Shown one piece after another: positions 12,719-55,640 of a DNA stretch of 64,000 nucleotides. Location: assembly GCA_900315665.1 (NCBI GenBank), contig OMZX01000026.1, positions 23,784-87,783 of the forward strand, read 5' to 3'. Origin of the DNA: an uncultured Eubacteriales bacterium. GTDB taxonomy: Bacteria > Bacillota > Clostridia > Lachnospirales > Lachnospiraceae. How positions within the stretch are numbered: the first letter of the stretch is position 1; every line of letters starts with the position of its first letter. A program made the translations under genes and the position numbers. Under the pieces are notes generated by a model, which was not told the DNA's origin, did not search any database, and was given only the letters and a program-made list of their open reading frames with translations.

Positions 12719-12761
12719 TTAGACCCAACTGCTTGGAACGTTTACATCCAAGCATTGGGAG

Positions 12762-12780
12762 CAGGATTAATCCTGACCCC
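12762..12780. repeat. Palindromic repeat copy (CAGGATTAATCCTG type), partial
   Basis: CAGGATTAATCCTGACCCC here is identical to the core and right arm of the 36-base perfect palindrome at 54744-54779. The left arm is not preserved here. Confidence 0.5.
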
Positions 12781-53404: not shown

Positions 53405-53470
53405 ATTTGTTTGTCAGAAAAACAGTGATGCGGTATGATATAGAAAAGGCTGAACAAGAGAGGTATCGAT

Positions 53471-53848
53471 ATGGCTGAAATTAAAAAGATCATGATTTGC
53501 GACGATTCCATCCTGGTACGTCTGCAGCTTTCTAATCTTATTAAGAATTATCTTCCAGGAGTAGAAATCACAGAGGCTTCAAATGGAGCTGAGGCGATTA
53601 AAAAATTTGATGCGGTACGTCCTGATCTGTCCTTTCTGGACATTGTAATGCCGAAAACGGATGGCATCGCTGCGACGAAGGGAATTCTTGCACTGGATGC
53701 TGATGCCCGCGTCGTGATTGTATCTTCTGTAGGAACGCAGAACAAGCTTCGCGAGGCCATCGAGGCAGGCGCAAAGGATTTCATCCAGAAACCCTTCTCA
53801 GGAGAGCAGATCGAGAAGCTGCTTGAGTTTTATTCCAAGGAGGCCTGA
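53471..53848 (+). CDS. Stand-alone response regulator receiver (CheY-like)
   Basis: 125 residues, a receiver domain only. Acidic pair Asp11-Asp12, phosphoacceptor Asp57 (FLDIVMPKTDG), Ser85 switch position and Lys107 in IQKPF are all present, so it should be phosphorylated. No DNA-binding domain. AAGAGAGG precedes the ATG. Its stop is two bases from the start of the CheX-like gene, so the two are made together. No histidine kinase lies near; it must be served by a distant one. Confidence 0.9.
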   Translation: MAEIKKIMICDDSILVRLQLSNLIKNYLPGVEITEASNGAEAIKKFDAVRPDLSFLDIVMPKTDGIAATKGILALDADARVVIVSSVGTQNKLREAIEAGAKDFIQKPFSGEQIEKLLEFYSKEA

Positions 53849-53850
53849 GC

Positions 53851-54726
53851 ATGTATGCACAGTTTTTCGGAAGCTACCTTCTGAACCAGCACGCTGTTTC
53901 GCCAGAAGCACTGACAAATGCAATACAGCATATGCATGAAACGCATATCAAACTGGGTACGCTTGCTATCCATATGGGCTATATGACCGCTGAACAGGTG
54001 GATGATGTCTGCGAAACACAGAAAAAGGCTGATATGCGATTCGGAGAGATTGCACTTGATAAGGAGTATTTGACACTTCCGCAGGTCAAGGAGCTTCTAA
54101 ATGCACAGCGACCGGAATATCTTTTGCTCGGGCAGGAGCTGATCGATGAGGGTGTGCTTACCAACAGCCAGTTTGAAACACTCCTTGCAGATTATCAGTT
54201 TGATGCAGACATTTCTGATCTTGGCACCGAGGAAAACGAAGAATCTGAAAATATCATTCGGAAATTCTTTGCAGATGCGGAGCGTCCGGTGGATGATTAT
54301 ACGCTTTTGTATCTAAATATGGTGTTCAATGATTTTGTTCGTTTCATTGGCTCGGATTTCACACCGCTTCCGGCTGTCAAGATGCCGACGTATACTTCGA
54401 CGCATTGTATCTCTCAGAATGTGACAGGAGAAATCTCACTGGTTTCAAGGCTCGATATGGATGACCGTGCTGCTATTGGCTTTGCATCACGTTTTGCAAA
54501 GATGGAGTTTGAGAAATATGATGATTATGTCATCGCATCAATTGGTGATTTTCTGAATCTTCACAATGGCCTCTATTCCGTGAATATGTCGAATCAGTAT
54601 GCAGTAGAGCTCGAGCTTGATCCGCCGATGGAAGAAGATAAAAAGAGCATTTCGGTTGACGACCGGACATACGTTATCCCGGTTATCTACCCATTTGGAA
54701 CGGTTCATCTGATTTTAACAATTTAA
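53851..54726 (+). CDS. CheX-like protein with four MshEN-type repeats
   Basis: 291 residues. Residues 5-28, 34-57, 63-86 and 92-116 are repeats of about 24 residues with 5-residue spacers, of form (K/R)LG-x5-G-x-L-T-x2-Q-x7-Q, as in the c-di-GMP-binding MshEN domain (two 24-residue motifs and a 5-residue linker). An acidic linker (117-145) leads to a CheX/CheC-like fold at about 150-291; IGDFLN (Asp233, Asn236) matches the phosphatase E-x-x-N motif with Asp for Glu. AAGGAGG overlaps the end of the receiver gene. I infer a c-di-GMP-tuned phosphatase or partner of the receiver; none of this is tested. Confidence 0.8.
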   Translation: MYAQFFGSYLLNQHAVSPEALTNAIQHMHETHIKLGTLAIHMGYMTAEQVDDVCETQKKADMRFGEIALDKEYLTLPQVKELLNAQRPEYLLLGQELIDEGVLTNSQFETLLADYQFDADISDLGTEENEESENIIRKFFADAERPVDDYTLLYLNMVFNDFVRFIGSDFTPLPAVKMPTYTSTHCISQNVTGEISLVSRLDMDDRAAIGFASRFAKMEFEKYDDYVIASIGDFLNLHNGLYSVNMSNQYAVELELDPPMEEDKKSISVDDRTYVIPVIYPFGTVHLILTI

Positions 54727-54743
54727 AGCTTTTATCATAACAG

Positions 54744-54779
54744 GGGAGTGGGGTCAGGATTAATCCTGACCCCACTCCC
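54744..54779. repeat. 36-base perfect palindrome, terminator-like
   Basis: A perfect inverted repeat centred between 54761 and 54762, with core CAGGATTAATCCTG, between convergent genes. The core and right arm recur at 12762-12780. It lacks a T-run and may be a dispersed repeat used as a terminator. Confidence 0.7.
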
Positions 54780-54792
54780 TAATATTTTTATT

Positions 54793-55431
54793 TTACAGCA
54801 TGGAAACGCCGAACGCGTTCACCAGACCATCAATTGGGACGTTGCCGCGACAGAGAGGGCAGTCATGATAATCTGTGCACTGGTAGTCCGGAAGTTCCTT
54901 CTTCGTGAAGACAGCGCGAACCGGGATGCCATTGACAGCATCGGTCGCAGAAAATACGGAAGCGATGCAGGTCAATGTTCCGCCATAGTAATGGACAGCC
55001 TCTATGACACGATTTGCAGATTTACCTGTCGATACAGAGCCAAACAGGATGAGGACGTTTTTTCCACTAATCATCGGACGGATATTATCCCGGAAGATGA
55101 TCTGCGAGTTTGAGTTAAATTCCGGTGTGACGACATAGATGGTTTTATGCGCATTGGTATTCAGGAAGCCATCCTTTGACAGTTCGTCGGCAAGATAAGC
55201 GCCGATTACCTCTGTGCCTTCATTGCAGATAATTGTATCAACGATGGTACCGAACAGAAACTGCTGTACTAAAGCTTCGGCGATGCCGTGCGCTTCCGAG
55301 GAACGGGACTTTATCGTCGTAAGATCAATATAGTAGTTTGTGTGTGAGTGATTTGTTACGAAATGTCCCTTGGTAACCTTCAGTGGCACTGTCGTGCCGC
55401 CGGCTTCAATCTTTGTGTATTTTTTCTCCAT
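54793..55431 (-). CDS. Orotate-phosphoribosyltransferase-like protein
   Basis: 212 residues. Type I PRTase fold with a PRPP loop region NVLILFGSVSTGKSANRVIEAVHYYGG, in place of the usual acidic pair; FGTIVDTIICNEGTEVIGAYLADEL and the C-terminal CxxC (YHDCPLCRGNVPIDG) are notable. The clipped acidic PRPP motif makes orotate activity uncertain. The CPLC end is common in a clostridial PRTase group of unknown substrate. The ATG at 55431 follows GGGGAGG. Confidence 0.8.
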   Translation of the reverse strand: MEKKYTKIEAGGTTVPLKVTKGHFVTNHSHTNYYIDLTTIKSRSSEAHGIAEALVQQFLFGTIVDTIICNEGTEVIGAYLADELSKDGFLNTNAHKTIYVVTPEFNSNSQIIFRDNIRPMISGKNVLILFGSVSTGKSANRVIEAVHYYGGTLTCIASVFSATDAVNGIPVRAVFTKKELPDYQCTDYHDCPLCRGNVPIDGLVNAFGVSML

Positions 55432-55640
55432 AGTGAGCCTCCCCAGTAAGTCTACAGCATCTGAATGAACGTTCCCATTTCCTCTTCGCACAAAAGAGAA
55501 AATATCTTTTATATAATTCATTATAGACAAATCCATTTCATGACGCAAGATAAAAGTTCTGATGGCGTAATCCGGATGTAGGCATTAGAATAGAAAGTGC
55601 TGATCGCGCAAAGAATATTATAGAGATGGAGGAAGTAGCG

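Follow-up and report, generated by a model that had tools for sequence, protein, structure and literature searches.

Two adjacent genes on the plus strand of the window (the whole 64,000-nucleotide stretch of DNA analysed, from an uncultured member of the Lachnospiraceae) raise the question of whether the second messenger c-di-GMP can be wired to a CheY-like receiver through a phosphatase. ORF calling places a stand-alone receiver of 125 aa at 53471-53848 and, at 53851-54726, a protein of 291 aa in which profile matches and the predicted fold identify four MshEN-type repeats followed by a CheX-fold domain. The reading we prefer, to which we give about an even chance of being correct, is that c-di-GMP, via the MshEN repeats, gates a CheX-type phosphatase of a dedicated second CheY-like receiver, with swimming as the output. 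What we observe in this module is its architecture, predicted fold, conserved polar ligand residues and phospho-residues, dedicated pairing, and association with flagella and CheA.

The initial annotation described the two genes as translationally coupled, and their layout agrees with a tight coupling: the ATG of the MshEN-CheX gene comes 2 nt past the receiver stop codon, and by sequence reading its Shine-Dalgarno sequence, AAGGAGG (53837-53843, plus strand), lies within the receiver gene, 7 nt before that ATG. A sigma-A-like promoter, TTGTCA-17-TATGAT (53411-53439, plus strand; 10 of 12 consensus positions), stands 5' of the pair and an intrinsic-terminator-like hairpin with a 17-pair stem was found by hairpin scan 3' of it (54743-54780, plus strand), so that the promoter-like site and hairpin enclose both genes in what looks like a two-gene unit. 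Sigma-A-like sites in the window region number 3 against a shuffle mean of 2.8, which is weak evidence alone, and terminator-like hairpins 1 against 1.2 in shuffles when stems of 5 or more pairs are counted; sigma-A-like sites (11/12 matched) are enriched in front of 93 homologous copies, with 11 found vs 0.7 expected. Sigma-28-type promoters upstream of the same 93 copies were no commoner than in shuffles, and flagellar sigma-28 control of the pair was rejected on that basis. The hairpin contains a perfect 24-base palindrome (54750-54773) with a second copy at 12757-12780 carrying 2 mismatches (0 expected from shuffles), which could represent a terminator, or a palindromic element, repeated within the source genome.

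Genes flanking the pair are unrelated to it by Pfam: those upstream encode a protein with an aminoacyl-tRNA editing domain and a lactate/malate dehydrogenase, and the one downstream encodes a Cys/Met PLP enzyme. A minus-strand ORF of 251 aa (54793-55548) has no Pfam match at E 0.001; by eye it resembles an ordinary phosphoribosyltransferase. A conserved third gene was sought among the homologous loci and none was seen: the commonest neighbour, an opposite-strand downstream ORF found nearly always where the receiver is upstream, occurs in just 31/93 loci. The start of that neighbour resembles, presumably, threonine synthase. By eye, a GGDEF gene stands beside the pair in at least G018, G146, G219 and G227; at the G018 locus (L020) a divergent GGDEF protein is encoded upstream of the pair on the minus strand (C64:27973-28443), and ORFs related to this divergent neighbour form a cluster in 5 loci.

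Conservation of the pair was surveyed in 299 genomes of the window's family, representing 298 genera, at a match threshold of E 1e-8. Matches were found in 97 genomes, 5 of which hold only a short CheX protein lacking repeats as judged from the matched ranges, leaving 92 of 299 genomes, or about a third of the sampled Lachnospiraceae genera, with the MshEN-CheX pair; these include G032 (split over two contigs), G025 (in-frame stop) and G304 (matching positions 1-191 only). The matches fall at 98 loci, one of them from another family (G058), and 93 copies out of 90 genomes are full-length after removal of L011, L015, L016, L021 and L108. A receiver is adjacent or fused in 88 of the 93, in three arrangements: downstream (44), upstream as in the window (35) or fused at the C-terminus (9). 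Among the 5 copies for which none was found, L085 and L107 are each the second copy of a genome in which the other one has its receiver, L008 stops 329 bases short of a contig end, and L097 and L106 are exceptions with no same-strand receiver within a flank of about 1.5 kb, the L106 flank having a receiver-like frame on the opposite strand.

Two wider scans extend this picture. In the phylum survey 18 of 398 genomes gave 19 matches; apart from that of the window there are 18, of which at least 3 lack repeats. In all 11 of these 18 that were examined as loci a receiver lies next to the gene, upstream in 7 and downstream in 4; three of the 11 (L208, L210, L213) repeat genomes from the family survey, and the remaining 7 of the 18 include the unpaired copy of L085. 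Named genomes were scanned with an alignment (A4) of the window's subfamily, and the best 80 of 393 relatives, titled Lachnospiraceae, Roseburia, Pseudobutyrivibrio, Anaerosacchariphilus or (one) Bacillota, show an upstream receiver and Asp at the catalytic position discussed below in 80/80, a set that is query-selected and shares part of its genomes with the survey. A single-protein scan of the named-genome contigs yielded 13 pattern matches and 0 confirmed relatives. On these sequence comparisons the pair is a real conserved module, one that other families of the phylum also carry.

The receiver was initially described as a receiver-only protein with a full phosphorylation set, and this holds: it matches PF00072 at 86.2 bits and retains D11, D12, D57, S85 and K107, while D11, D57 and K107 are present in 88/88 paired relatives and D12 in 87/88. 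Its C-terminus, ...EKLLEFYSKEA, is devoid of Arg and so has no Cle-type Arg-rich C-terminal peptide. The source genome, G030 and G018 each contain exactly two receiver matches (E 1e-15) in frames of <160 aa, which in all three are the flagellar-operon CheY and the paired receiver.

The N-terminal part of the partner protein was said to carry four repeats of about 24 residues with 5-residue linkers, in the geometry of MshEN domains. We recover four 24-residue repeats at residues 5-28, 34-57, 63-86 and 92-115 (the fourth ending at 115 rather than 116), with 5-residue spacing and a 29-residue period that extends across residues 1-118; self-comparison scores 53 at offset 29 and 16 at offset 58, and among offsets 10-59 a score of 53 was attained by 0/5000 shuffles. 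The NCBIfam model NF053729 ('c-di-GMP_motif, MshE-related') gives the window protein 67.4 bits against a cut-off of 38 and matches 16/16 members of alignment A4, each of the registers 1+2, 2+3 and 3+4 scores in a scan of the source genome, and a mixed profile (A3) aligns MshE (5htl) to positions 32-86, corresponding to repeats 2 and 3, with E 5.5e-5. An AlphaFold2 model of the 291-aa protein, built from a 50-row alignment (mean pLDDT 88.9, pTM 0.81), predicts two helices per repeat, and Foldseek places it on c-di-GMP-bound MshE (5htl_B) over 50 columns at 0.7 A with probability 1.00; the E-value is just 0.84 because the match is short. A helical repeat unrelated to MshEN was rejected on the NF053729 score, the mixed-profile alignment and the Foldseek match, which bear out the MshEN-type geometry.

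How many ligands such a four-repeat array could hold is suggested by its residues. Two successive MshEN motifs hold one c-di-GMP through their Arg, Gly and Gln (PMC5013675), and in the window protein these are kept in repeat 2 (53950-54021; K34, G36, Q57, with C54 at the second Leu position) and repeat 3 (54037-54108; R63, G65, Q86), whereas repeats 1 (53863-53934) and 4 (54124-54195) are degenerate, F5 and M28 replacing the Arg/Lys and Gln of the former and L92 and Y115 occupying these positions in the latter (all plus strand). The same division runs through the homologues: Arg/Lys at position 1, Gly at 3 and Gln at 24 occur together in 0/93 for repeat 1, 86/93 for repeat 2, 82/93 for repeat 3 and 0/93 for repeat 4, and the full polar set spans repeats 2 and 3 together in 80/93. 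The doubled MshEN site proposed initially therefore does not stand, since repeats 1 and 4 lack the set in 93/93 homologues, and two c-di-GMP sites were rejected on residues; a single c-di-GMP site per protein is predicted, between repeats 2 and 3. Against this, the profile of the window's own subfamily places MshE on repeats 3 and 4 instead; because the mixed and subfamily profiles disagree, assignment of the site register rests on the residues.

The identity of the ligand is less straightforward, as the Leu positions that pack on the guanines are only partly retained. V79 and L83 of repeat 3 fit, but V50 and C54 of repeat 2 deviate, and across most relatives repeat 2 has A/V at 50 and N/H/C at 54; its position 21 is C in the window protein and N in 51/53 relatives with a downstream or fused receiver, which counts against our preferred reading. 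In MshE the two Leu of the motif corresponding to repeat 2 touch one guanine, and the non-binder XpsE is altered at the second Leu motif position (L29R, L58C) (PMC5013675). With one guanine pocket altered, the repeats might recognise a protein, or some ligand other than c-di-GMP, 3',3'-cGAMP for example; MshE itself also binds cGAMP weakly, with a KD of 3.3e-4 M vs 5.0e-7 M for c-di-GMP (PMC5013675). We regard this as decidedly improbable, given that most relatives retain Gln and Arg/Lys in each of the two central repeats and that GGDEF proteins are encoded in all 92 pair genomes. Four copies, L086 (G214), L103 (G294), L107 (G127) and L109 (G143), have largely lost the polar set of repeats 2 and 3 and kept the acid-x-x-Asn motif of the C-terminal domain; the genomes of L103 and L107 each hold another full copy. 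The only other MshEN locus in the source genome is L217 (G000 C78:15944-16102), within a 563-aa frame that presumably encodes a type IV pilus or secretion ATPase.

The C-terminal domain (residues 129-291; 54235-54723, plus strand) was initially called CheX/CheC-like, a call upheld by the predicted fold and not by Pfam. Ranks 1-13 of the Foldseek PDB comparison are CheX/CheC-like chains, among them 3hm4, 1squ and 3hzh, the best (3hm4) reaching E 4.6e-8 and a TM of 0.74 by target length for the predicted model, and the mixed profile A3 matches Borrelia CheX of the CheX-CheY complex (3hzh) at E 3.4e-4. The Pfam CheX model PF13690 scores 21.1 bits, under its cut-off of 27, which counts against our preferred reading; among five relatives two lie above the cut-off (27.5, 33.4) and three below. 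Short CheX-like proteins co-occur with full-length MshEN-CheX proteins within the same genomes: frames of 157-173 aa lacking repeats are present in G092, G094, G114, G148, G232, G280 and G317, and L016 (G024) is a repeat-less CheX-like protein in a 206-aa frame with its own downstream receiver.

The predicted active-site motif, D233-F-L-N236 (54547-54558, plus strand), lies at the position first proposed, but D-x-x-N is the form of just 37/93 full-length homologues, the other 56 having E-x-x-N; N236 is present in 93/93. That the window protein has Asp rather than Glu as its catalytic-position acid again argues against our preferred reading. The acid inserted by CheZ is an Asp, however, and because phosphatases bridge the receiver Lys by an acid, Asp is by analogy a plausible catalytic acid for the window CheX domain. 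In both CheZ and the CheC/CheX/FliY family an inserted acid forms a bridge to the receiver Lys, and Asn99 of CheX orients water (PMC3035606).

The distribution of this acid divides the homologues into two subfamilies. Copies with the receiver upstream have D233 in 35/35, and their receivers S85-S86 in 35/35; those with a downstream or fused receiver have E233 with D229 in 52/53, and their receivers T85 in 45/53 and A86 in 51/53. Two further D233 copies are L104, with its receiver downstream, and L106, with none. Since the six upstream-type loci outside the family among the seven of the phylum survey have Glu, the family one (L208) having Asp, Asp at 233 looks derived; it is almost confined to the receiver-upstream subfamily. 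The CheX motif is also altered (N229/D233) in both L104 (G110), where the receiver is degenerate, and L106 (G263), which has no same-strand receiver.

These substitutions bear on whether the domain is an enzyme, for the CheX fold might instead bind the phospho-receiver without hydrolysis, as a scaffold that detects its coincidence with c-di-GMP and acts on the motor or another target. Asp in place of Glu in 37/93, the joint change of 229 and 233 in one subfamily along with the receiver's T-A to S-S, and the presence in the Foldseek list of FliM middle domains, which share the CheX fold, would all fit such a scaffold. We nevertheless think it unlikely, as CheX and not FliM heads the fold list, the FliM domains ranking below it, position 233 is acidic and N236 invariant in 93/93, and an acid bridging the receiver Lys together with a water-orienting amide is known chemistry (PMC3035606).

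A phosphatase might also have a different substrate, with the CheX domain acting on the flagellar-operon CheY and the paired receiver regulating the CheX protein. CheX proteins do act on CheY, and the source genome has the separate CheY-like receiver along with FliY- and CheC-type matches. This wiring is in our judgement quite unlikely, because the receiver is fused to the CheX protein in 9/93 copies and the receiver and CheX subtypes co-vary (35/35 vs 52/53), though shared descent alone could suffice for the latter. In a receiver tree, built on few columns and with a bootstrap that had not settled, a separate clade (100/100) unites the upstream-type receivers, and 8/9 fused receivers cluster (83/86), L099 standing apart. 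The paired receivers as a whole do not make up a single clade; on long branches, three CheY and two CheB rows are interspersed among the remaining paired receivers, which counts against our preferred reading.

The case for swimming as the output is drawn from gene content. CheA is encoded in 88/92 pair genomes vs 66/207 others and FlhA in 86/92 vs 67/207, and GGDEF in 92/92 vs 158/207, all counts that ignore genome kinship; because all 153 FlhA-positive genomes have GGDEF, its co-occurrence adds nothing beyond flagella. The source genome has one CheA, FlhA, a CheY in the flagellar operon (an operon read from ORFs by eye), and at least 11 GGDEF and 8 EAL matches. Three genomes have the pair and neither CheA nor FlhA: the G110 receiver lacks D12 and T/S85, the G214 copy (76% complete genome) is without Arg/Lys and Gly in its two central repeats, and the pair of G274 is intact. 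G110, where receiver decay accompanies the absence of CheA and FlhA, is a possible natural case of decay. That the window pair is itself such a relic, inherited and no longer binding or hydrolysing anything, might be suggested by the 16 other genomes of its genus (four <90% complete), in which no full-length match to the window protein was found, and by the decayed ligand residues of some relatives (L086, L103, L107, L109). This is very improbable for a pair that keeps its phospho-residues, polar ligand residues and N236, and is served by a promoter-like site, a ribosome site and a terminator-like hairpin of its own.

Returning to c-di-GMP gating of a phosphatase, the module might operate as follows. 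The four-repeat MshEN solenoid would bind one c-di-GMP between repeats 2 and 3, altering the activity of, or access to, the attached CheX-type domain, which would strip phosphate from the paired receiver, a dedicated second CheY-like protein probably charged by the chemotaxis kinase CheA. The c-di-GMP level would thereby set the amount of a second phospho-CheY and affect swimming, most likely with that phospho-CheY as a motor bias, a brake signal or a phosphate sink beside CheY. We infer the ligand, phosphatase activity, direction of control, kinase and output from the residues, folds and gene associations given above. That the module is a c-di-GMP-gated phosphatase for a second CheY, conserved in flagellated Lachnospiraceae and other families as an enzymatic junction between messenger and receiver, we rate at slightly under an even chance. 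If true, one second messenger would reset the phosphorylation of a chemotaxis-type receiver, and two signalling systems would be joined by an enzyme instead of by a motor brake or transcription; the module may be a direct wire between two main controls of bacterial swimming. To our knowledge little is settled about how, in Gram-positive gut bacteria, c-di-GMP acts on the flagellar motor, and a compact, widespread pair found mostly in flagellated, CheA-bearing genomes is a direct candidate for such a route.

The pair was initially put forward as a new wiring, and the combination is not wholly new because Wang 2016 names the association of MshEN with CheX in one sentence (PMC5013675), the only place in the literature searched where the two occur together. 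That report has the same domain pairing and, its supplementary table aside, gives no partner receiver, taxon or function. The titles and abstract openings of the matches listed hold no description of the receiver pairing, and a c-di-GMP-binding CheY phosphatase gave 0 literature matches; in the literature searched, then, the domain pairing is known in passing, and no account turned up of a paired receiver or of a single-site anatomy.

Among known systems, the repeats are most directly comparable with the MshEN domain (NF053729; Vibrio cholerae MshE, 5htl), sharing its 24-residue motifs and 5-residue linkers, and repeats 2 and 3 match MshE's two motifs in their Arg/Lys, Gly and Gln; in contrast to MshE, the window protein has four repeats with the outer two degenerate, altered Leu contacts in repeat 2 and no ATPase. 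With the CheX/CheC/FliY phosphatases (PF13690, PF04509; 3hzh, 1squ) it shares the predicted fold and the E/D-x-x-N motif, but it carries an MshEN-type sensor, has Asp for Glu in its subfamily and is not encoded beside che genes. The receiver resembles CheY in being stand-alone with all phospho-residues, and is 43% identical to the CheY of the source genome, yet its gene is separate, lies next to that of a CheX partner and belongs to the distinct clade of upstream-type receivers (100/100). By analogy, the nearest functional parallel of the pair is the Cle proteins of Caulobacter, CheY-like c-di-GMP effectors that likewise join a c-di-GMP input to a CheY-like protein in the control of swimming (PMC5677366). 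In Cle the receiver itself binds c-di-GMP via a C-terminal extension and its activation is independent of phosphorylation (PMC5677366), whereas in the window pair the putative sensor sits on the partner protein and not on the receiver.
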